64,000 bases of DNA from Methanococcoides sp. (GTDB lineage: Archaea > Halobacteriota > Methanosarcinia > Methanosarcinales > Methanosarcinaceae), in the NCBI GenBank assembly GCA_021108275.1, contig JAIORD010000028.1, positions 124,001 to 188,000 on the forward strand, in the 5' to 3' direction. Below the pieces are notes generated by a model, which made no database searches, was not told the DNA's origin, and was given only the letters and a program-made list of their open reading frames with translations. This document shows positions 10,881-62,833 of the stretch, in pieces (the stretch's first letter is position 1; each line of letters starts with the position of its first letter). Made by a program: the position numbers and the translations under genes.

Positions 10881-12656
10881 ATGGTTGTAAAAGATAACTT
10901 ACGAACTCCTATCGTTTGTGTTATGGGGCATGTGGATCACGGCAAGACCTCACTGCTTGACATGATACGTGGAAGTGCAGTTGTATCCGGAGAAGCTGGA
11001 GCTATCACCCAGCACATTGGTGCAACTGAAGTTCCTATAAGTGCTATTGTGGAAAAATGTGGGAATCCAGGTCTACTTGACAAGTTCATGGTTCCTGGAC
11101 TTCTTTTCATTGATACGCCTGGACATCATGCGTTCACTACTTTGAGGAGTCGTGGCGGTGCTCTTGCAGACCTTGCCGTTGTTATCGTTGATATCAATGA
11201 AGGTTTTAAACCACAGACGATCGAGAGCCTGAATATTTTGCAACAGCATAAGACCCCGTTCGTTGTTGTGGCGAACAAGATCGACAAGATCCATGGTTGG
11301 AACCCTCAAAAAGGTGCTCCTTTCATGACGTCTTACAATAAGCAGAGCGAACACGTAAGGGGAAGCCTTGACACCAAGTTCTATGAGGTCGTGGGTGAAC
11401 TGTATAACAATGGTTTCAGTTCCGATCGATATGACCGTGTAAACGATTTCCAGCATAATATCGGTGTTATTCCTATCAGTGCGATCACAGGTGAAGGTAT
11501 TCCTGATCTATTGATGGTTCTGTTGGGACTGGCGCAGAGATTCCTTGAATCGAATCTTCATTATAATGCAGAAGGGCCCGGTGTGGGTACTGTTCTGGAG
11601 GTCAAAGAAGAGCGTGGGCTTGGTACCACCCTTGATCTTATATTGTATGATGGAGTGCTGAAAAAAGGTGATACGATAGTTGTTGGATGTTTGGGTGAAC
11701 CTATACAGACAAAGGTTCGTGCTGTCCTAAAACCACGTGCTCTTTCAGAGATTAATGTTGAAGATAAGTTCAAGCAGGTCAGTAAGGTTACTGCTGCAGT
11801 TGGTGTTAAGATCTCAGCTCCTCATCTCGATGGTGCATTATCCGGAGGGTCAGTTAGGGTAGCTACTGCTGAAACACTGGATGCTGTTGTTGAAGAGGTG
11901 CGTAATGAGGTCGAAGATGTCCAGATCGATACCGATCAGAGCGGTATAACCATTAAAGCTGATACAATTGGCTCTCTTGAAGCTCTTGTGAACGAACTTA
12001 AAAAGGAAGATATCCCTATTCGCAAAGCAGATGTGGGTGATATTTCCAACAGGGACATTATGGAAGCTTTCGCTATCGAAGATCCATTCCATTCTGTTAT
12101 TGTAGGTTTCAATGTCAATATTCTTCCTGATGCCAAAGAAAAAGTACAATCTACTGGCGTCAAGGTGTTCATGAACGATGTCATCTACCGTTTGATAGAT
12201 GACTATAGGGATTGGGTAAAGGAACAGCGGGCTATATCCGAAAAGGCCGTTTCCGAGACAATTGTCAAACCCGCTATGTTCACTATTATGCCTGACTGTG
12301 TGTTCAGACAGAGCAAACCTGCTGTTGTAGGTGTACGGGTAATAGGTGGTACCATCAAGACGAAGGTCGATGTTACGACAGGCGATGGTACTGTAGTGGG
12401 AATTGTAAAAGGCTTGCAATCCCGAGGCGAGAACGTAAGTGTTGCTACTATCGGTATGGAGGTTGCTATGTCTATCGAAGGCCCTACAGTGGGCAGACAG
12501 ATAAACGAAGGCGATATTCTCCATGCGAACATACCTGAAAGGCATGCTAAGATACTTGAGCACGAACTTTACGATTCACTTTCGGCAGACGAATTAGAAG
12601 CACTTGACTCCTTCTTGGATATAAAAAGAAGGGATAACCCATTCTGGGCGAAATGA
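10881..12656 (+). CDS. infB: Translation initiation factor aIF5B (IF-2 family)
   Basis: A 591-residue GTPase, the normal length for archaeal aIF5B, which joins ribosomal subunits with Met-tRNAi. G1 is GHVDHGKTSLLD, the Ile-Thr switch is AGAITQHIGATEVP, G3 is DTPGHHAF and G4 is ANKIDKIHGW. Domains II and IV and the C-terminal helical tail (HELYDSLSADELEALDSF) follow in order. No intein interrupts the G1 or G3 sites, where archaeal infB inteins sometimes occur. It follows the ribosomal operon and precedes S6e, a common archaeal layout. Confidence 0.97.
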   Translation: MVVKDNLRTPIVCVMGHVDHGKTSLLDMIRGSAVVSGEAGAITQHIGATEVPISAIVEKCGNPGLLDKFMVPGLLFIDTPGHHAFTTLRSRGGALADLAVVIVDINEGFKPQTIESLNILQQHKTPFVVVANKIDKIHGWNPQKGAPFMTSYNKQSEHVRGSLDTKFYEVVGELYNNGFSSDRYDRVNDFQHNIGVIPISAITGEGIPDLLMVLLGLAQRFLESNLHYNAEGPGVGTVLEVKEERGLGTTLDLILYDGVLKKGDTIVVGCLGEPIQTKVRAVLKPRALSEINVEDKFKQVSKVTAAVGVKISAPHLDGALSGGSVRVATAETLDAVVEEVRNEVEDVQIDTDQSGITIKADTIGSLEALVNELKKEDIPIRKADVGDISNRDIMEAFAIEDPFHSVIVGFNVNILPDAKEKVQSTGVKVFMNDVIYRLIDDYRDWVKEQRAISEKAVSETIVKPAMFTIMPDCVFRQSKPAVVGVRVIGGTIKTKVDVTTGDGTVVGIVKGLQSRGENVSVATIGMEVAMSIEGPTVGRQINEGDILHANIPERHAKILEHELYDSLSADELEALDSFLDIKRRDNPFWAK

Positions 12657-12746: not shown

Positions 12747-13154
12747 ATGGCAGATTTTAAAATTGTAGTTTCAGATCCAAAAACAAAGACCTACCAGTTC
12801 GACATTACTGGGGCTGAAGCAAACCAGTTCATTGGAAGATCTATTGGTCAGACAGTAGATGGCGCAACAGTAGGTCTGGATGGTTACACACTAACCATTA
12901 CAGGCGGTACCGATAACAGTGGTTTCGTAATGAGCCCAACCCTTCCAGGTCCAAAGAGGCAAAAGGTCCTCATTGCAAATGGTGTAGGATATTCAGCAGT
13001 AGCAAAAGGCGTACGCCGAAGGAAATTCCTTCGTGGAAGCGAGATCGCTCCTGACATTACTCAGATCAACACCAAAGTTACAGGATACTCTGACAAGACC
13101 ATTGAAGACATCCTCGGTGGCGGTTCAGAAGACGTTGAAGCATCAGCAGAGTGA
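12747..13154 (+). CDS. rps6e: 30S ribosomal protein S6e
   Basis: A 135-residue archaeal S6e of usual size. The opening ADFKIVVSDPKTKTYQ, the mid segment FVMSPTLPGPKRQKVL and GVRRRKFLRGSEIAPDITQIN are family signatures. It belongs to the small ribosomal subunit. The start has TTGGAGG about 7 bases upstream and its own TATA box. The stop codon is within the stem of its terminator. Confidence 0.97.
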   Translation: MADFKIVVSDPKTKTYQFDITGAEANQFIGRSIGQTVDGATVGLDGYTLTITGGTDNSGFVMSPTLPGPKRQKVLIANGVGYSAVAKGVRRRKFLRGSEIAPDITQINTKVTGYSDKTIEDILGGGSEDVEASAE

Positions 13155-13209: not shown

Positions 13210-14487
13210 TTATTTTGATCTTGTATATTTTGGTGAGTCCAGCCCAACATCGATGAGTGCTTTCTTCTTGACGAGGTTATCTATGAATTTTTTAGCTCCT
13301 CTCAAGTTAAGCCCGGAATGTTCCATAACATCATTGAGGTCAAAGTATTCTTCATCTTCAATGAGTTGATCCACGATCTGTGTCAGTTTGGTCGGGGCAC
13401 CATTTGTGGAATGCCAGAATACGAATTTCCGGTTATTTTCATCAGTTTCATTGTATACAAGATCGTCTTCCACCAGATCGTAGATGAAAAATCCCAGTCT
13501 CTGATGTGAATATGTCCTTGCCCAGTCCTTTATACTTTGATCCCATGAACTGCTGATAAAACACAGACTCATGTATTGGTTTTGTTCGATGGTACTTGCT
13601 TTTGCCTGTATCATCTCGATGATATCTCTCTTGTCGTCTATGGATTTCCAGTAGTTATCGACAATAAGCATTGGAGTTTTGAACTTTCCTTCCTTTATGG
13701 AGCCACGAGCACTTCTTTTTGAAAGTTCGACCTTCCATTGCTTGTCTGCAATGTATTCTCCATCATAAGAGACCTCTGGAGGCTGTTTCTCAAATTTTTC
13801 CTCCAGGATATTTATGTAACTGTAAAGTTTTGAAAGGGTCTCAGTATCAAGCTCATCTTTTTTAGTATGGGCCTGGGAGTCAGAGGGGACTGATGTTTCA
13901 TCTTCAACATCATCAGTTGAGCTAGTTTTGATCTCGGAGGGGAAAGTTTCAGACATTTCAGTTTTGTCTTCTGCAGGGGCTTTTTCCTCAGCTTCCTTCT
14001 GCTCTTTCTCTCTTATTTCCCTTTCTTCTCTTTCAGCTTGCTTTTTACTTCCGATCCTGTTCTCGTATTCGCTCAGGTTCCTGTTTGTAAGCTCGATCCT
14101 GTGGCTAAATCCCATGTCCATTCTGTCCACAAGGTCACTGATGGCAAAGACATCGACATTCCCACCGGTAGCAAGGACATTCTCCACTTCCTGAAGCAGC
14201 AACGTAGGGGTTTCTACGAATCTTTCTTCATTCTCATAGAACTCATCAATGTTGCCGTTATGACTTCCGAAGGAGTCAAGTTCTTTTTTTTCTGCTTCTG
14301 ATGTCAGTCCTGTTATCCTCGTCCGAAGCTGTCGAAGTTGTGAAGTAGTGGCTGAATCCTTTTGTTGATATGTCTTCTGGATCAGTTTTTCGATGCGTGA
14401 ATGCGTGCTCTTCAGGAGCTCATGCACTTTTTTCCTGTTCTCTTCCTGCAATGTTGTGGGGTGGGATTCCAGATCCATATCGTTCAC
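13210..14487 (-). CDS. Coiled-coil and winged-helix protein of the ESCRT-like cluster
   Basis: A 425-residue protein I cannot name. Residues 1-160 are predicted helical coiled coil, 150-220 are low-complexity Glu/Lys/Ser, 220-250 another helix, 255-350 an alpha/beta domain (FKTPMLIVDNYW, YMSLCFISSSWD, RLGFFIYDLVEDDLVYN), and the last 70 residues look like a winged helix (YFDLNDVMEHSGLNLRGAKKFIDNLVKKKALIDVG). The alpha/beta part recalls restriction-endonuclease-like folds, but I see no certain active site. In ESCRT systems, winged-helix proteins (ESCRT-II, CdvB tail) link the filaments, so an adaptor role is possible. It starts 9 bases after the AAA gene stop, as the last gene of that operon. 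Confidence 0.75.
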   Translation of the reverse strand: MNDMDLESHPTTLQEENRKKVHELLKSTHSRIEKLIQKTYQQKDSATTSQLRQLRTRITGLTSEAEKKELDSFGSHNGNIDEFYENEERFVETPTLLLQEVENVLATGGNVDVFAISDLVDRMDMGFSHRIELTNRNLSEYENRIGSKKQAEREEREIREKEQKEAEEKAPAEDKTEMSETFPSEIKTSSTDDVEDETSVPSDSQAHTKKDELDTETLSKLYSYINILEEKFEKQPPEVSYDGEYIADKQWKVELSKRSARGSIKEGKFKTPMLIVDNYWKSIDDKRDIIEMIQAKASTIEQNQYMSLCFISSSWDQSIKDWARTYSHQRLGFFIYDLVEDDLVYNETDENNRKFVFWHSTNGAPTKLTQIVDQLIEDEEYFDLNDVMEHSGLNLRGAKKFIDNLVKKKALIDVGLDSPKYTRSK

Positions 14488-14496
14488 TCTCTGTTA

Positions 14497-15645
14497 TTAG
14501 TGGAATAGCTCTCTAAAGACTTCTTCTTCGCCAGTTTTCTTTATTTCACGTTTTGCTTCGGAATACCAGCTGGTGATCGAAGGTTTCCTTTGCTCCAGTA
14601 CTTTGATGAAATCATCCATCTTTATCTTCCGGGGTTCTGCACCACGTAGTGCCTCTCCAAGGGGAATGTCAGCGGCTTCTTTGCAAATAGCTGAAATATC
14701 TGCTCCTGAATATGATCCGGTCATCTCTGCCAGTTTCTCCACGTTGATATCATCATCCATCGGCCTTTTCTTCAGGTTGATCTTAAAGATGGCACTTCTT
14801 GCAGGAAGGTCCGGTTCCGGCACGAAAACGAGTTTACTAAAGCGTCCCGGTCTGCGAAGTGCCGGGTCTATGGCCCAGGGTTCGTTGGTCGCAGCAAGGA
14901 CTAAGAGATTATCATCGGCGGTATCCACTCCATCCATCTGAGCAAGCAGTTCATTGACCACTCTTTTGGCATAGCCTTCAGCTTCACTTCGCCTGCCTCC
15001 TATGGAGTCTATCTCGTCAAAAAAGATGATGGCTTTCTCACATTCCCTTGCAGTGTCAAAGACCTTCTTTATGTTCTTTTCAGAAGCACCCACCCATTTG
15101 CTTACAATACTGCTTGTTTTGACACTAATGAAATCTGCACCACATTCCTTTGCAGCGGCCTTTGCCATCATTGTCTTTCCACAACCGGGGGGCCCATGCA
15201 GGAGTATTCCTTCGCCAGCTTTCTGGCCATACATTTGGTATAGTTCCTTATGAGTGAATGGGTATATTATGGCCTTTCTGATATCCTCTTTAACAGACTC
15301 GAGGCCTCCAATGTCCGAAAATCCGATATCGGGCTTTTCTGTCATTATAAGGTCATCTTTTGATAGTGATGATTCATCAGTATCTTCCTTTGTAGCCGTG
15401 CCTGAGCCGGAATACTGGACGCCTGATCTTTTGAATGACTGTGCCTTTGCAAAAAGGTGTTCTGCAAGGTCACGCTGTGTATTCTTATCGGTTTTGTCAG
15501 TTGAGAGTTTCGAAGCTTCGTTGTAGAGCTTTGCAGATCTTAGATATAGTTCCCTTGCTCTCTCTTTTTCATTCTCTTCTTCCAATGTCTTAGCAGCTTT
15601 TGCATAGCCTCTTGCCTGTGCTGCCAGTGAACTTGCAGATCCCAG
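14497..15645 (-). CDS. Vps4-type AAA ATPase with MIT-like N-terminal domain
   Basis: A single AAA module of the Vps4/katanin (CdvC) class. Walker A is GPPGCGKT, Walker B IIFFDEID, the pore loop SKWVGASEKN resembles Vps4, and the arginine fingers are in LRRPGRF; GSYSGADISAICKEA is sensor 2. An N-terminal helical region (about residues 1-75) resembles an MIT domain, which binds ESCRT-III tails. The first standard start in frame is TTG 15585, but the helical repeat continues upstream (ARGYAKAAKT). The frame is open back to a TAA at 15658-15660 with no ATG, GTG or TTG. GGGGGTG lies 5 bases before CTG 15645, the start given here with low certainty. It follows the ESCRT-III-like gene by about 40 bases. 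Confidence 0.85.
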   Translation of the reverse strand: MGSASSLAAQARGYAKAAKTLEEENEKERARELYLRSAKLYNEASKLSTDKTDKNTQRDLAEHLFAKAQSFKRSGVQYSGSGTATKEDTDESSLSKDDLIMTEKPDIGFSDIGGLESVKEDIRKAIIYPFTHKELYQMYGQKAGEGILLHGPPGCGKTMMAKAAAKECGADFISVKTSSIVSKWVGASEKNIKKVFDTARECEKAIIFFDEIDSIGGRRSEAEGYAKRVVNELLAQMDGVDTADDNLLVLAATNEPWAIDPALRRPGRFSKLVFVPEPDLPARSAIFKINLKKRPMDDDINVEKLAEMTGSYSGADISAICKEAADIPLGEALRGAEPRKIKMDDFIKVLEQRKPSITSWYSEAKREIKKTGEEEVFRELFH

Positions 15646-15687
15646 ATTTGCACCCCCTTATCTGTAGGTCAGTATGGTCCTGTTAGA

Positions 15688-16257
15688 TCACTCTGACTCA
15701 GCCATCTCTTCATCGATCTTCTTTGATAGCTCATCTTTGGATGATATATCAGTGCTAAGTTCTGCTAATAGCTCTGATCGAAGTGAGTCTTGCATATCAC
15801 TAAGCTCTGTGCCACCGTTCATAGCCGCATCCATTGAGGATGTCATGAGGTTGGTAGCAGTATTCACTTTCTCCATGGATGTGCGGATGTTGGTAATAGC
15901 TCCCTCGAGCTTTGTTGTGTCAAAACCAAGCTGCTTTTGCCATTTACCGAGATTTTCCCCGATCTCAACAACCTCTTTAAGTCCACTTTCCATCTCCATT
16001 ACGTCGGTCATGGACTGTGCCATTTCGACCATACTTCCAATGGTATTGACCTGGCCTTCTATCATCGAGTATCTGCGAGATGCTACCCTGAAATCCCTGT
16101 CATTCCCATCTGAAAGGGCATCTTTGGCTTGTGTACGTGCCTGTTGTCTTTTCTTGTTGAGCTCTTTCTCACGTGCTGTCAATCTCTGTTCGGACATCGA
16201 TAGCTTTGTTTTCAGTTCATCAGGTGATACCTTTTTGAATGGATTAGCGAATCCCAT
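15688..16257 (-). CDS. ESCRT-III/Snf7- or PspA-like coiled-coil protein
   Basis: A 189-residue, all-helical, highly charged protein. A short N-terminal segment (GFANPFKK) is followed by a basic helical hairpin (residues 12-75), a Met-rich helix (VNTIGSMVEMAQSMTDVMEME) and an acidic tail with SELLAELSTDIS that loosely recalls a MIT-interacting motif. Length, basic-to-acidic layout and the neighbouring Vps4-type ATPase fit the Snf7/CdvB fold; PspA is the related alternative. These proteins polymerise on membranes. The start ATG at 16257 shares one base with the stop of the small RHH gene (TAATG) and has GGAGGAG upstream. The longer frame to 16302 lies inside that gene. Family assignment is by pattern, not by search. 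Confidence 0.65.
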   Translation of the reverse strand: MGFANPFKKVSPDELKTKLSMSEQRLTAREKELNKKRQQARTQAKDALSDGNDRDFRVASRRYSMIEGQVNTIGSMVEMAQSMTDVMEMESGLKEVVEIGENLGKWQKQLGFDTTKLEGAITNIRTSMEKVNTATNLMTSSMDAAMNGGTELSDMQDSLRSELLAELSTDISSKDELSKKIDEEMAESE

Positions 16258-16412
16258 TATATCTCCTCCTCCATTTTCTTTTGTTTGGCATACCTTATAC
16301 ATATTTTCAATGCTTCGGACATGTTTATAGCAACTCCTTTTTCAACAAGATCTTGTAGATATTGTTTACTATCTTCTGAGACCCTTGCACTTACAGGATA
16401 CGAGCGACCCAT
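16257..16412 (-). CDS. Small 51-residue ribbon-helix-helix-like protein
   Basis: A 51-residue frame starting ATG at 16412 with GAGGAG 5 bases upstream, a strong ribosome binding site. It reads MGRSYPVSARVSEDSKQYLQ and then DLVEKGVAINMSEALKICI, the pattern of a short beta strand and two helices of the RHH (Arc/CopG/NikR) DNA-binding fold, where VSARVSEDSK would be the strand. Its stop overlaps the start of the ESCRT-III-like gene, so they are translationally coupled. It is the first gene of the minus-strand operon and faces the divergent SPFH gene, so it is a candidate regulator of both. Confidence 0.7.
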   Translation of the reverse strand: MGRSYPVSARVSEDSKQYLQDLVEKGVAINMSEALKICIRYAKQKKMEEEI

Positions 16413-16597
16413 TTTATCTCCTCTTGTTTAGTTATTTTAATTAGATATATCTATTATTTTTGTTGATCTCTCGTCTATTGTTCTATCAAAGAGATCAACG
16501 GATATGTATGCCTATGTATACAATGGAAAACATTATATATAATATTTGTTCAATGTTACTCTATAGCATATTCCCTGAGGATGGAGGTATTGGAACT

Positions 16598-17884
16598 ATG
16601 GCGTTCAAATGGAAGAAGGAACTTGATGATATTGCACGTGTTATCCCTAAGAAGAATGTAAAAGGTTTCTTCAGTAAGTCTATTACTCTCTCACCTAATG
16701 AGAAAGCTGTCATGATAAAGAATGGTGTAGTTGAAGACATCATCGACAGTGGAAAAATGAAAGTTGGTGGCTTGCTAAAACCAGGAACTTTGCGTAAGGA
16801 TGTGGATATCGCTCTTATTGACACTTCTTTTAAGGAGCTGAGGTGGGAGGTTCCCGGTCTATGGACTCGTGATGATCAGGAAGTTGGATGTGGGGGTATC
16901 CTGAGGTTCACCATAAACGATCCAAAAAAGTTCTTCAATATGATATTCTCCTATACGGTTCCGGAGAAGAACGGTGAAAGAAATCTCTCTATCTTCAATA
17001 TTTACGATCGCCTTGAAAGTGAGACAATAACCCGTGTCCTTGAACCGGAAGTTCATGGGGAGGATATTGAATCCCTTTATGGTAACCGTGATCTTCAGCT
17101 AAGGATGGAAAATGAGCTTGAAATGCAGCTTAAAGACACTCTTTTGCTGTGGGGGATCGAGCTTGTAAAATACACTTGCGAGTGGGATTTTGGCAACTAT
17201 GCCGTTGTCAGAAAGGAGCGCAGTGGATTTCAGGTTAGCGAGGAGCTTAAGGAAATGTCTGTCCTTGAAAAGGAAGGCGACCTTGATCGGGAAAGTCGTA
17301 TAAATGTTGCAGCCACACGAGCTGGCTTTGCAGAAGAAACAGTGCGTTCATCTCATTACAGGACAGAAGAGGAAAAAGATGCTCTCCACAGGTCAAAGAT
17401 ATCACAGATCGAGACCGAAGCTGATGCTGCCGAAGCTAAACAGGCAATTGAGACTTTTTCTGATTGGAAACAGACCAAAACCGGATCCAAAAGGGCTGAA
17501 CTTGAACTTGATGAGGATATGACCGACCGTCAGCATTCCCGGGACATGGAGTACATGGGTAATGTTATGGAAAAAGGCGGTTCAGATGTCGCAAAGGTCA
17601 TTGCACAGGGCAGGGAGTTCCAGAATATGTCTCCTGAGCAGCTTGAAGCCCTTGCCAAAATGAAAGAAGCTGAGAACATTGCAAAAGAGGACAAGGTCCG
17701 TTTCATGATGGATGTTGAGGACCGTGAGCGCGATGATTCATATCGCAGGAAGGAACTTGATGCTGAAATGATGGGTGCTGCACAGGCCCGCAGAACTCCG
17801 GGTGTCAAGAAATGCCCTGGTTGTGGTACTACAGTCCCTGCAGAAGCACATTTCTGTGGTCAGTGCGGGACAAAGCTTGAGTGA
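16598..17884 (+). CDS. SPFH (band 7) domain protein with C-terminal zinc ribbon
   Basis: A 428-residue protein. ATG 16598 has GGAGGT 9 bases upstream; the longer frame to 16460 looks spurious. Residues about 25-215 form an SPFH/virion-core-like domain (SPNEKAVMIKNGVVEDI, LIDTSFKELRWEVPGLWTRD, RFTINDPKKFFNMIF). Residues 215-400 are a long charged coiled coil. The end is a zinc ribbon (KKCPGCGTT and HFCGQCGTKLE). This layout matches bacterial YdjI, which works with a PspA homologue and a zinc-ribbon membrane protein (YdjFGHI of Bacillus). No signal peptide is seen, so it acts at the inner face of the membrane. It diverges from the ESCRT-like operon. Confidence 0.85.
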   Translation: MAFKWKKELDDIARVIPKKNVKGFFSKSITLSPNEKAVMIKNGVVEDIIDSGKMKVGGLLKPGTLRKDVDIALIDTSFKELRWEVPGLWTRDDQEVGCGGILRFTINDPKKFFNMIFSYTVPEKNGERNLSIFNIYDRLESETITRVLEPEVHGEDIESLYGNRDLQLRMENELEMQLKDTLLLWGIELVKYTCEWDFGNYAVVRKERSGFQVSEELKEMSVLEKEGDLDRESRINVAATRAGFAEETVRSSHYRTEEEKDALHRSKISQIETEADAAEAKQAIETFSDWKQTKTGSKRAELELDEDMTDRQHSRDMEYMGNVMEKGGSDVAKVIAQGREFQNMSPEQLEALAKMKEAENIAKEDKVRFMMDVEDRERDDSYRRKELDAEMMGAAQARRTPGVKKCPGCGTTVPAEAHFCGQCGTKLE

Positions 17885-18025
17885 ACTCAATGTAGGGGTA
17901 AAAATTCACTTTTAAAACAAATATTCCTCTAAAATCAATATGCATTATCTGTATAGCTTTGCCCCGGAAAGAACTAATAGCGATCAAACTTAACATAATA
18001 TGATAGTTTCCACAGGTGTCCGATC

Positions 18026-19837
18026 TTGATAGAAAAACACGTAAAAATATTGATATTATTATCCTTTTTAGTCCTGGCATTATCCGTTACTGGCAGTGCT
18101 TCATCAACTCTGGACTATGAGGTTGCCTTCTCTGATGGGGACTCCTTCTGGCTGGAAGAAGGATATGTTCTCAATATAATCGATATTAATCCATACAATA
18201 ACTATGCTCAAATATCTATGACATGGAACGGCCATGAAGTCTACAATGACTTCTACTATGAGGGAGATTATTTCTATTACGACGACGGCCTTATTTCTCT
18301 GGAATTTGGTATAGTAGACATCTATTCGGAATCATATTTTGACTATATGAATATTGATGACCTTTATATATATTATAAAGAATTCCCACAGGGTTCCATA
18401 GTGCTCTATTCCATCCCGATGGACTATAATGTCTATCTAGATAGTTATTATCAGGCCACAAGTGATGGATACACTCTGATAGAATTAAGTGGTCTGGAAC
18501 CTGGTTATCATGCAGTTACCCTGGAATCTTCAGTATATGATGATATGGAGGCAAGTTTCTACGTTTCATCAGGAGAGGTCCAGTACTATTCTGTCTCTGA
18601 CTTTAGCAGGTCTTCATCTGCTGCTACTGACAGGATAGATCCCACATATACTGACGATTCCGCCAACAGTGACAATGGTGCTGGTGTTGTTATTCTTATT
18701 CTTTCTTTCATCTTTGTAGTGCTATTCTTAAGAGGCATAATTAAAGCACGAAGGCGGAACAAGAAATCTGAACGATCTGGTGCTGGTAGTTTTGGAGCTA
18801 GCCCATCAGCAAAGAGTGATCGTTCCTCAAAGACTGCTACTAAGCCTAAACCTAAATCTAAACCTAAGCATGAGCCTGTCCCTGAAACAATTACTGAACC
18901 TGAAAAAGGTCCATCCATGCCCATGGGAGCCGGTGTCGGAAAAGCACCATCTTCACCTTTGAAGGAAAGTAGTTCTATTGTGGTAAAATATGCTTTTAAT
19001 TACCGGGGTGCTCTTCTCCAATACAAGGTAAAGGTGGAGAATCACACTTCTGAACCTATAGGGGATATCAAGATCTCTCTTTTCGTACCTGATGTTTTCC
19101 TTTTGAAAGAAGCTGAGAAAACAATGTCTATGCTTGAACCCGGTGAAGGAAAGACGGTTACCTTTGAGATCCGCCCGACTGGTGAATGTGGTGACTGTAA
19201 GATATCTGCAGCTATTGATTATTATGACTATAACACGAAGAAGCGTAAGCATGTTGATCTTGAAGGCAAGATGGTAAGCATAGTTTGTCCTGTACTTCGG
19301 GTCAGGCAGATCGATGAACCTTCCTGGAGGTCGGTGGTCAGTACTCTCATTTCAGCAGAAGAGGATTCCAAGGACCTTGAGATCCCTGCAGAGAACCTGT
19401 TCGATATTGCTACCCGGGTTCTCAAGGACATGAACATGTACATGATCGAGCCAGAGATCACATCAACACCTCGCCTTTTTACGGGTGTTGCAAGGTTCTA
19501 TGCTGAAGGTGTTAGTGGGTTGAAGTATGCATCATATGTCGAAGTTGTAGGCAAGAGTCGATCACGCCTTATATTAAGGGCATGGGCGGAAAAAGAGGAT
19601 GCACTTGCCGGTTTCTATCATAAGATGCTGGAAGATATCGAAAAGAGGACAGATATCAAACTTTTCGTTGATGAGGGTTCTGCACAATACAATATAAGCA
19701 CTACCAATATTAATGATAGCCTTATCCAGCGCTCTACTATAGGTTCGGAATCTGAAGCCCGAAAGTGTTCCGTTTGCGGAAAAGAAGTAAAGGAGAATGC
19801 AAAGTTCTGTGAAGAATGTGGGGGAAAGCTGGACTGA
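18026..19837 (+). CDS. Membrane protein with PEGA-like ectodomain and C-terminal zinc ribbon
   Basis: A 603-residue protein starting with TTG, with GGTG 7 bases upstream. Residues 1-28 are a signal peptide (ILILLSFLVLALSVTGSAS). An exported Tyr/Asp-rich part follows with a PEGA-like unit (SIPMDYNVYLDSYYQATSDGY). A membrane segment at about 218-240 (GVVILILSFIFVVLFLRGII) is followed by basic residues, placing the rest in the cytosol: a Lys-Pro linker, a beta domain (about 320-420), an alpha/beta domain, and a zinc ribbon (RKCSVCGKEVKENAKFCEECGGKLD). Its zinc ribbon resembles that of the SPFH protein just upstream, and the two probably act together, like YdjG and YdjI. Confidence 0.8.
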   Translation: MIEKHVKILILLSFLVLALSVTGSASSTLDYEVAFSDGDSFWLEEGYVLNIIDINPYNNYAQISMTWNGHEVYNDFYYEGDYFYYDDGLISLEFGIVDIYSESYFDYMNIDDLYIYYKEFPQGSIVLYSIPMDYNVYLDSYYQATSDGYTLIELSGLEPGYHAVTLESSVYDDMEASFYVSSGEVQYYSVSDFSRSSSAATDRIDPTYTDDSANSDNGAGVVILILSFIFVVLFLRGIIKARRRNKKSERSGAGSFGASPSAKSDRSSKTATKPKPKSKPKHEPVPETITEPEKGPSMPMGAGVGKAPSSPLKESSSIVVKYAFNYRGALLQYKVKVENHTSEPIGDIKISLFVPDVFLLKEAEKTMSMLEPGEGKTVTFEIRPTGECGDCKISAAIDYYDYNTKKRKHVDLEGKMVSIVCPVLRVRQIDEPSWRSVVSTLISAEEDSKDLEIPAENLFDIATRVLKDMNMYMIEPEITSTPRLFTGVARFYAEGVSGLKYASYVEVVGKSRSRLILRAWAEKEDALAGFYHKMLEDIEKRTDIKLFVDEGSAQYNISTTNINDSLIQRSTIGSESEARKCSVCGKEVKENAKFCEECGGKLD

Positions 19838-19984: not shown

Positions 19985-20341
19985 ATGGATCAGAAAAGAA
20001 TGAATGAGCTTTTTGTATGGAACAAAAAAGCTTCCCGTCTGGAATTGTTCGTAAGGATATTCTACAGTATACCTGTTGCGATCGTTCTATCTCTTTATAG
20101 TTTTCTAATGACCTTTTGTTTTCTCCTGCAGTTGCCTTTTATTTTGGTACTCGGAAGAAGACTTGAAATTCTGAACAAGGTCGTAAAAGGCTATTTGGAA
20201 TACTATACCCAAATTGCAGGTTATTTCTATATGACTACCGATGAACGTCCTGGTATCCTACCAAAGGATATTTCTATCTTTGAAAAGCAACTTTATTATG
20301 ATCACAATACGGTCGAAATATTTGATATGGATGAAAAATGA
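19985..20341 (+). CDS. Small membrane protein, DUF4389-like
   Basis: A 118-residue protein with a hydrophobic double segment (FYSIPVAIVLSLYSFLMTFCFLLQLPFILVLG, about residues 28-60) followed by RRLEILNKVVKGYLEYYTQIAGYFYMTTDERPGILP. This last part matches the DUF4389 pattern (GR followed by an amphipathic helix and a TDxRP motif). Function is unknown. GGTG lies 10 bases before the ATG. It sits directly after the zinc-ribbon membrane protein but behind a terminator and its own TATA box, so it is a separate unit that may still be linked in function to the membrane cluster. Confidence 0.75.
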   Translation: MDQKRMNELFVWNKKASRLELFVRIFYSIPVAIVLSLYSFLMTFCFLLQLPFILVLGRRLEILNKVVKGYLEYYTQIAGYFYMTTDERPGILPKDISIFEKQLYYDHNTVEIFDMDEK

Positions 20342-20404
20342 TCGTCCTAACCAAATAAAAAAGTGATAATCTATTTCATAAACGATATTAATGAAGGGGG
20401 TAGC

Positions 20405-20797
20405 ATGCAGAATAGTTATGTAGGCGAAGTAGGCGATGGAAATTGGGAAAAGGAAATCGAAAAGGAACCAAAACCTGTTCTGGTAATGTTCTATCTGACA
20501 ACATGTTCACATTGCAAAGCGATAGAACCTTACTTCAGGGAGTTTGCAGAGGCATACAAAGATTCATGTAAATTCTTCAAGGTCAATGCTGAAATTAATC
20601 CCTGGGTCTCAGAAAGATATGGTGTGGAGGGGACTCCCACGTTTGTGTTCATGTGTGCCGGTAAAATGATACGGGGCATGGCAGGTGTTTCCCATCCTTC
20701 TGAACTTAAAAGGAACATTGAGGATTTCCTGAAGAACGGTTCAGTGTGTGCTGCTAATGTCACATCGCTTAAGTACGACATGTCACTGTACGGCTGA
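20405..20797 (+). CDS. Thioredoxin-fold protein (CxxC)
   Basis: A 130-residue thioredoxin-like protein. The active site is TTCSHCKA (CSHC rather than the classical CGPC), followed by the conserved cis-proline segment VEGTPTFVFMCAGK. Two further Cys (FMCAG and SVCAANV) lie near the C-terminus. The frame is open to 20363, but ATG 20405 has GGGGGT 5 bases upstream and begins a normal thioredoxin. No signal peptide is present, so it works in the cytosol. It starts 63 bases after the DUF4389-like gene and may be cotranscribed with it. Confidence 0.88.
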   Translation: MQNSYVGEVGDGNWEKEIEKEPKPVLVMFYLTTCSHCKAIEPYFREFAEAYKDSCKFFKVNAEINPWVSERYGVEGTPTFVFMCAGKMIRGMAGVSHPSELKRNIEDFLKNGSVCAANVTSLKYDMSLYG

Positions 20798-61113: not shown

Positions 61114-61648
61114 TTTATCATGTCCTCTAAAATATAAAATGTAGTTAATTTCTATTATTCTTCTCTATGTTTAATAAAGTTTCTTGGTACGTATTTACTG
61201 ATTAATATTATTATATTTCAAGGGCTTATATATCGACAATCCCAGAACTTGAATATGGGACAATTTGGAAAATCGATTGCAGTACTGTCCAAGTGCTTTC
61301 CGACAATTGTCGATAAGCTTATATATTAACATTTATGAATACTATATCTGAAGATAATCTAATGGAGACAGTTCGGGCGGACGTAGGTCTGTCAGATATA
61401 TTTCTATATTGGATGAGATCTGAAAACAAGAGAAGGCGATGATCGATAGAATAATACCGGTTGATCCGGTAGTGTTTGAGCTTTTCGATCAAATTCCAGC
61501 CTGATCTGACCATCTGCTTACAACACGGATGGTGCCAGGAAAACCTGGCAAGAGAGTATAAAAATCAATTCATATTAATTTAATTAGGTCAATGCGCAGT
61601 AGAGCGCATAATTTGCACTAGAATGCAAATCCAAGAGAGGGGATGAAC
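61114..61648 (+). promoter_or_regulatory. ftsZ promoter region and long structured leader
   Basis: A 535-base gap. CTTATATAT (61225-61233) and GCTTATATATT (61317-61327) are TATA boxes; the second would give a leader of about 300 bases. CGACAATTGTCG (61301-61312) is a perfect palindrome next to it, and another CGACAAT half-site follows the first TATA. The leader has stems GATCGA/TCGATC enclosing TACCGG/CCGGTA (61441-61491), CCATC/GATGG (61510-61532), TGCCAGG/CCTGGCA (61533-61550), ATGCGC/GCGCAT (61592-61609) and ATTTGCA/TGCAAAT (61611-61630). A separate small RNA in the same stretch is possible. Confidence 0.65.
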
Positions 61649-62833
61649 ATGCAGTCTATAGTACAGGAAGCACTAAAACACACAGAGAAAGAGAGAGAGT
61701 ACAGGCAGTCAATCACAGAAGACGACAAATTCGAAGGCTTTGGTATGCCTAGGATAACCATCGTTGGTTGTGGCGGTGCAGGTAACAATACTATCAATCG
61801 CTTATACAATATCGGCATTGAAGGTGCAGAGACTATTGCTATCAATACTGACAAGCAACATCTGGACCATATTCGTGCTGACAAGAAGATCCTCGTCGGT
61901 AAGACTCTTACAAGGGGTCTTGGAGCAGGTGGATATCCTGAGGTTGGCGCCAAGGCTGCAGAACTCGCACGTGGCACTCTTGAAGAGATATTCAAAGAGA
62001 GCGATCTTGTTTTCATTACCGCTGGAATGGGTGGCGGAACCGGTACTGGTGTTGCACCAGTTGTTGCAGAGATCGCAAAGGAGCAGGGAGCTATCGTTGT
62101 TGGTATGGTCTCCAGTCCTTTCAGGGTAGAGCGTGCACGTACCGTCAAGGCTGAAGAAGGTCTCGATGCATTCCGCAGTGCAGCTGACACAGTGATCGTT
62201 CTTGATAATAACAGGCTTCTGGACTATGTTCCAAACCTTCCTATAGAGCAGGCATTCTCTGTAATGGACCAGCTTATCGCTGAGACCGTTAAGGGTATTA
62301 CTGAAACTATCACTCAGCCATCCCTCATCAATCTCGATTACGCTGATATCAGGGCTATCATGGGCTGTGGCGGCGTTGCGGTCATGCTTGTTGGTGACAG
62401 CAAGAACCAGGACAAGAGTACTGATGTTGTTCGCACAGCACTTAACCACCCACTTCTCGATGTTGATTACAGAGGCGCTACAGGAAGTCTTGTGCACATC
62501 ACAGGTGGTCCTGACCTCAGCTTGAAGGAAGCAGAAGAGATCGCAGCATCCCTGACATACGAACTTTCGTCGGATGCAAACGTTATCTGGGGCGCACGTA
62601 TAAGGGATGACTACGAAGGAAAGGTGCGTGTCCTGGCTATTATGACAGGTGTTCAGTCTCCACAGGTCCTCGGCTCACAGTCCCAGGGCGGTATGGTCGA
62701 GAACGTTGCTACGAACACAAGCTCACACTCAAAGCCAAACTTTACTCGTGCAGAGCGAGGTCGCCGCACAGTTGTCGAACCTATGGGTTCAAAGGCATCC
62801 TTTGGCGGTTCAATTATAGATATAATTCAGTAA
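61649..62833 (+). CDS. ftsZ: Cell division protein FtsZ
   Basis: A 394-residue tubulin-like GTPase. The nucleotide-binding start is [17 protein letters not shown], the tubulin signature is [17 protein letters not shown], and [15 protein letters not shown] is the T7-loop region. The N-terminal extension ([21 protein letters not shown]) is typical of archaeal FtsZ1. The C-terminus carries a flexible Ser-rich stretch and a conserved last segment ([10 protein letters not shown]). ATG 61649 is preferred to ATG 61643 because GGGG lies a proper distance before it. It forms the division ring; the leader may control its amount. Confidence 0.97.

Follow-up and report, generated by a model that had tools for sequence, protein, structure and literature searches.

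A predicted ESCRT membrane-remodelling locus of the Meth_adaptin kind in a Methanococcoides genome

We analysed a 64,000-nucleotide stretch of Methanococcoides sp. DNA (the window; contig JAIORD010000028.1 of assembly GCA_021108275.1, positions 124,001 to 188,000), which is part of a 2.67-Mb genome labelled G000; related genomes and loci carry G and L labels. Window positions 13210–19837 hold a gene cluster that we read, with a probability of roughly 0.78, as an archaeal membrane-remodelling system based on the endosomal sorting complex required for transport (ESCRT), of the published Meth_adaptin kind and with the working proposed below. Four co-directional genes form an operon on the minus strand and encode a ribbon-helix-helix (RHH) protein, an ESCRT-III-like protein, a Vps4-type AAA ATPase and a winged-helix/coiled-coil protein. 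The opposite strand carries an SPFH/zinc-ribbon gene, followed by a gene for a receptor-like protein with PEGA, transmembrane and zinc-ribbon parts. Genes for translation initiation factor IF-2 (10881–12656) and rpS6e (12747–13154) flank the cluster. Its features are:

16257–16412, minus strand: RHH protein (CopG-type), 51 residues, first gene of the operon, called from Pfam RHH_1 in homologues and from conservation
15688–16257, minus strand: ESCRT-III-like protein, 189 residues, called from a Pfam Snf7 match below cut-off, an AlphaFold2 (AF2) model and Foldseek
14497–15645, minus strand: Vps4-type single AAA ATPase with an N-terminal MIT domain (about 15406–15642), called from AAA, CdvC and MIT matches and a tree
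13210–14487, minus strand: winged-helix/coiled-coil protein, 425 residues, called from AF2, Foldseek and an alignment from 24 loci
16598–17884, plus strand: SPFH/band-7 protein with a C-terminal zinc ribbon, called from Band_7 and Zn_Ribbon_1
18026–19837, plus strand: receptor-like type I membrane protein, called from PEGA, Alpha_adaptinC2 and zinc-ribbon matches and a transmembrane segment
16515–16531, plus strand: candidate RHH operator TGTATACAATGGAAAAC, a conserved palindrome whose exact site is single in each of nine genomes with the system
16534–16542, plus strand: TATA box TATATATAA in the divergent promoter region; 27 of 28 intergenic regions have one

The stop codon of the RHH gene overlaps the start of the ESCRT-III-like gene (TAATG), so translation of the two is probably coupled. 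Two listed starts were revised. The SPFH gene most likely begins at the ATG at 16598 rather than at the listed 16460, since alignments with most homologues begin there, close to residue 47 of the listed open reading frame. The AAA frame is open upstream of its listed TTG (15585) to about 15645 and the extra residues complete the MIT domain; its start is probably the CTG at 15643–15645, behind a GGGGGTG ribosome site.

The gene neighbourhood is conserved far above chance. Twenty loci in three families keep the RHH, ESCRT-III and Vps4 genes opposite SPFH, usually together with the receptor, the exceptions being contig ends and a few rearranged loci. The RHH gene heads the operon in every locus examined (71–94% conserved), and the order RHH, ESCRT-III, Vps4, which puts ESCRT-III directly upstream of the ATPase, holds in nearly all of them.

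The 189-residue protein is very probably ESCRT-III-like, as judged from its predicted structure. AF2 models it as a helical hairpin (residues 12–50 and 53–109) followed by a third helix (115–147) and two short C-terminal helices. When the PDB was searched with this model, the top Foldseek match was S. islandicus CdvB (E=6.6e-3, probability 1.00); Asgard ESCRT-IIIB, CHMP1B, CHMP2A–CHMP3 and the Snf7 core also stood high in the list, and Vipp1 ranked below CdvB/ESCRT-III. Target-normalised template modelling scores from Foldseek between the Snf7 core and this modest model were 0.72–0.81. Pfam Snf7 aligns with the window protein across 161 of 171 positions (E=0.024) and matches 17 of 18 family members (best E=2.7e-4); there was no PspA-family Pfam match. 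The protein would be expected to polymerise on the membrane and to contact the MIT domain of the ATPase.

By its motifs, domain matches and phylogeny, the ATPase is a single-AAA, MIT-domain enzyme of predicted Vps4 type. It has a Walker A motif (GPPGCGKT), a Walker B motif (FFDEIDS) and a Vps4-like pore loop (SKWVG), a loop of the kind typical of Vps4, and it matches both Pfam AAA (E=3.4e-44) and the CdvC model (E=1.6e-71). Pfam MIT matches the N termini of all 18 homologous ATPases (best 1.6e-6; window copy by itself 0.089). An MIT profile gave no significant match in the PDB, where it turned up calpain-7, an MIT-domain protein. A maximum-likelihood tree of 65 AAA domains groups the window ATPase with the single-AAA ATPases of G379, G004 and G411 (support 99/90), in a clade that lies outside those of both Cdc48 D1 and Cdc48 D2.

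No Pfam match was obtained for the winged-helix protein. Its AF2 model (predicted local distance difference test (pLDDT) 83) comprises an N-terminal helical bundle, a low-confidence, acidic and variable linker, a coiled coil, an alpha/beta core and a C-terminal winged helix, of which Foldseek backs the winged helix only (Zalpha, Rio2, RPC39). A winged-helix protein also stands beside an SPFH–zinc-ribbon protein in G346 (L187:2112-5477). Neither Vps4 nor ESCRT-III lies near this pair, which may represent the module without its ESCRT part.

On the plus strand, the SPFH protein matches Band_7 (E=2.6e-5) and Zn_Ribbon_1 (4.6e-6), both above cut-off. The receptor-like protein has a signal-like segment (residues 8–26), a PEGA ectodomain and a single transmembrane segment (221–239) followed by basic residues, then an appendage-like Ig tail and a zinc ribbon. 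The adaptin-appendage-like tail (residues ~315–560) is placed in the cytosol on the basis of the positive-inside rule. Pfam matches were PEGA 2e-5, Alpha_adaptinC2 0.0072 (2.5e-4 in relatives) and zinc ribbon 3.4e-6; by sequence alone the adaptin-appendage assignment is weak. At the G147 locus, the GOLD-appendage protein is a further match for the tail (E=5.3e-6). Among 19 tail-bearing proteins, the tails align in all 171 pairs, at a median identity of 57%, but the N-terminal parts in only 45 of 171. The ectodomains carried on this common tail are PEGA only, S-layer with four PEGA, PQQ propeller with PEGA, PPC/GOLD/PEGA and CARDB/PEGA. A second receptor in the window's own genome (G000:C6:97940-98866; L052:6687-8867), away from the ESCRT operon, has three PEGA domains, a transmembrane segment and the same adaptin/zinc-ribbon tail. 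The pattern suggests a single adaptor tail on which recognition domains are exchangeable.

Pfam RHH_1 matches 14 of the 21 RHH family members (best 4.4e-5), the window copy by itself having no Pfam match. The candidate operator between the divergent units is a near-palindrome, aTGTATACAa, with an adjoining BRE-like (transcription factor B recognition element) GGAAAAC; it contains TGTATACA, and the intergenic layout is TGTATACAATRG-AAAAC-NN-TATATATAA. The palindrome is found in 25 of 27 distinct loci, and the TATA box lies most often 60–70 bp before the SPFH start. The exact 17-mer occurs once per genome, always between the divergent units, in all nine genomes examined with the system and in neither of the two without it. 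When up to two mismatches are allowed, other sites appear about as often as for the reversed control pattern. That the site is the box of a genome-wide regulator was rejected, as the exact site occurs once per genome. The simplest reading is a dedicated RHH–operator switch, in which the RHH protein is predicted to bind the site and would repress from it; the site may be conserved partly as core promoter.

These results confirm what the original prediction, made by a model from this DNA, described and bear out its interpretation in part. The operon and the genes divergent from it are all present on the strands given. The proposed ESCRT-III/Vps4-type core is upheld by the Foldseek matches and the AAA tree, the MIT-like ATPase N terminus by the homologues, and the winged-helix coiled-coil protein, small RHH-like protein and SPFH/zinc-ribbon partner by the models and domain matches above. 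The last gene had been described as a PEGA/transmembrane/zinc-ribbon protein; those parts are there, but the adaptin-appendage-like cytosolic tail, diagnostic of the Meth_adaptin clade, had been overlooked. The prediction was to be abandoned if the 189-residue protein matched no ESCRT-III or PspA fold and the neighbourhood was not conserved; it survived, through the Foldseek matches and the 20 conserved loci.

The ESCRT-III-like protein has matches in 38 of 186 genomes of the order (one of them, in G019, weak and chance-like), including Methanococcoides, named strains of Methanolobus, Methanomethylovorans and Methanoperedens. An identical protein occurs in a Methanococcoides metagenome-assembled genome, and the G097 copy is a 100% match. 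In the Methanosarcinales co-occurrence survey that the prediction had proposed, covering 118 good genomes, 28 have both ESCRT-III and the winged-helix protein, 7 have just one of the two and 83 lack both (Fisher p=1.4e-19, uncorrected for shared ancestry). A 53%-identical MIT-Vps4 lies beside a piece of ESCRT-III in G379, from another family of the phylum, and so the system is not strictly an invention of Methanosarcinales.

Of 11 genomes in the window's genus, 5 carry the system (one of the six others is just 76% complete). G099 has lost about 4.5 kb between points within the Vps4 and receptor genes, and the junction falls on a GTTGATCTT direct repeat (L057:8280-8325). A different deletion, in the fragmented G096 assembly, fuses the winged-helix gene to the receptor (L068:1100-1145); G095 is without ESCRT-III and its tail gene has several stops. 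The patchy presence and the deletions in sister species, which took out most of the ESCRT operon, indicate that the system is dispensable; this speaks against an essential part in division. The cluster occupies the same chromosomal site beside infB and rpS6e in the window's genus, in Methanolobus-type genomes and in G106.

Around the cluster, the receptor gene is followed by genes for a DUF4389 protein and a thioredoxin (19985–20797); a DUF4389 gene is also near the L036 cluster, and not at most loci. Some relatives have insertions between Vps4 and the winged-helix gene (L043:10081-13419, L037:11954-15027), absent from the window, which encode transmembrane/zinc-ribbon proteins and a HEAT-repeat/zinc-ribbon protein, the latter also matching adaptin N-terminal repeats.

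The Meth_adaptin clade of archaeal ESCRT systems was defined by Makarova et al. (2024, mBio; PMC10936438). Its parts are MIT-Vps4, ESCRT-III upstream, SPFH with coiled coil and zinc ribbon, and an adaptin-appendage protein with zinc ribbon; GOLD–transmembrane–appendage and ProX-like proteins also occur in its neighbourhoods, GOLD not being required in every genome. The same paper proposes that such systems sort proteins or form vesicles in cells that divide by FtsZ, and draws a comparison with YdjI/PspA. In common with this clade, the window locus has MIT-Vps4, ESCRT-III directly upstream of it, the SPFH/zinc-ribbon and adaptin-appendage/zinc-ribbon proteins, and an FtsZ host; FtsZ, as the original prediction had said, lies in the same window (open reading frame with a GGGTGTG motif, 61622–62830, plus strand). 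It differs in that the receptor ectodomain is PEGA, there is no GOLD match in the window's genome at E≤0.1 and no ProX-like (OpuAC) gene is among the genes of the locus. From the lack of these two, the window locus is a reduced Meth_adaptin member with an RHH gene at its head. The G147 locus, with OpuAC-fusion (2.3e-70) and GOLD-fusion (1.8e-5) appendage proteins, fits the published exemplar and is tied to the window by 65% Vps4 identity, gene order and the tail match. Main-clade archaeal ESCRT systems include a winged-helix protein, arCOG09748 (helical N terminus, coiled coil, globular core, C-terminal winged helix; PMC10936438), which the window protein matches in its order of parts; unlike in those systems, no kinase/phosphatase or arCOG08177-type gene was recognised at the window locus.

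The mixture of ESCRT and SPFH parts had been put forward as new. It is not: Meth_adaptin, the YdjI/PspA comparison and the FtsZ argument are already in PMC10936438. The main text of that paper has no RHH, CopG or ribbon-helix terms (its supplements lie outside this check), and what appears new relative to it is the operon-specific candidate switch, the modular receptor-tail family and the visible loss events.

We propose the following working for such a Meth_adaptin system. The ectodomain of the one-pass receptor would bind an extracellular or S-layer target. Its adaptin-appendage/zinc-ribbon tail, together with the SPFH scaffold and the winged-helix protein, would gather the receptor into a membrane patch and recruit ESCRT-III. 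ESCRT-III would then polymerise on the membrane and MIT-Vps4 would remodel and remove it, so that a vesicle is pinched off or the membrane sealed. As the first product of the operon, coupled to ESCRT-III, the RHH protein would bind the single intergenic site and hold both divergent units low until needed. The sequence analysis shows the genes and their domains, among them MIT, the ESCRT-III-like predicted fold, the conserved neighbourhood and the unique DNA site, whereas polymerisation, contact of MIT with ESCRT-III, cargo, RHH repression and vesicle formation are conjectural.

Several observations weigh against it. The window ESCRT-III-like protein falls under the Pfam Snf7 cut-off (15.0 versus 27.3 bits), a model that misses divergent archaeal members (those of L183 and L185 score nothing). 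Its AF2 model derives from a shallow alignment (18 rows; pLDDT 73) and had no Foldseek match in the PDB at E 0.001 or better. As IncA and BAR-domain coiled coils are interleaved among the matches, no E-value is decisive, and the ESCRT-III call depends on Foldseek rank and probability. A PDB sequence search with the family profile gave chance matches only, with no ESCRT-III, and hhalign against the ESCRT-III-like proteins of G004 and G411 gave 6% probability, the profiles being very shallow. For the ATPase, pairwise scores (phmmer against the PDB) put p97/Cdc48 D2 closest; kinship with p97 D2 was rejected, as a pairwise score is not a clade and the tree places the enzyme outside D1 and D2. Moreover, the winged-helix gene is still intact in G099 after the ESCRT deletion. 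Finally, Methanoperedens-type genomes (L059, which is G048:C335, and G043, G051, G059, G060 and G067) carry one to several tail receptors, L059 having four, one with a PQQ propeller and one with GOLD, and yet no ESCRT-III of this locus's family and no MIT-Vps4 was detectable in them. The tail may therefore not be exclusive to ESCRT.

Many of the same parts could serve membrane repair or an envelope-stress response like that of Bacillus YdjFGHI–PspA, the SPFH–zinc-ribbon protein anchoring the coiled-coil protein at damage and the ATPase recycling it, with no vesicles or cargo sorting. In both systems a PspA/ESCRT-III superfamily protein is paired with an SPFH protein that has a zinc ribbon at its C terminus, PspA depends on YdjI to reach the membrane (cited in PMC10936438), and a repressor-type site dedicated to the system would fit a stress response. 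However, the window has an MIT-Vps4, a winged-helix protein and an adaptin-tail receptor that YdjFGHI has not, and no PspA-family or TPM-domain match; CdvB/ESCRT-III, not Vipp1/PspA, gave the top structural matches, and the combination of a constant adaptin-like tail with swapped ectodomains suggests that cargo, not damage, is recognised. We consider repair alone unlikely, but a serious contender.

A virus or mobile-element module, acting in defence or egress rather than in cell physiology, would account for the patchy distribution and repeated deletion. It is very improbable given the constant chromosomal site beside infB and rpS6e, and no mobility gene was recognised among the scanned neighbouring proteins (PADLOC models were not included). 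Least credible is a Cdv-type (CdvABC) system aiding cell division: the CdvC-like ATPase and CdvB-like fold are shared, whereas the window system comes with receptors and SPFH, is absent from many species in the window's genus and family, where it is being lost by deletion, and has FtsZ in the same window, which argues against a main division role. The role suggested at the outset, in vesicle formation or membrane repair and not in main division, remains the likely one.

Beyond the Meth_adaptin assignment, we tentatively suggest, at somewhat less than even odds, that one regulated ESCRT machine serves interchangeable cargo receptors (PEGA, S-layer, PQQ propeller, GOLD and CARDB on a common tail) and is switched by the RHH repressor at its single operator. 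Specific and cheap predictions, beyond the main text of the published catalogue, follow from the receptor-tail family and from the single conserved operator. The system is present in named Methanolobus strains and is apparently dispensable and regulated, so that its deletion or induction would probably be non-lethal. Whether ESCRT originated as a sorting or a division machine is an open question, for which euryarchaeal systems beside FtsZ are a natural test. If true, the suggestion would mean that an FtsZ-dividing methanogen sorts by adaptor tails, following a logic like the one that eukaryotic cargo receptors use.

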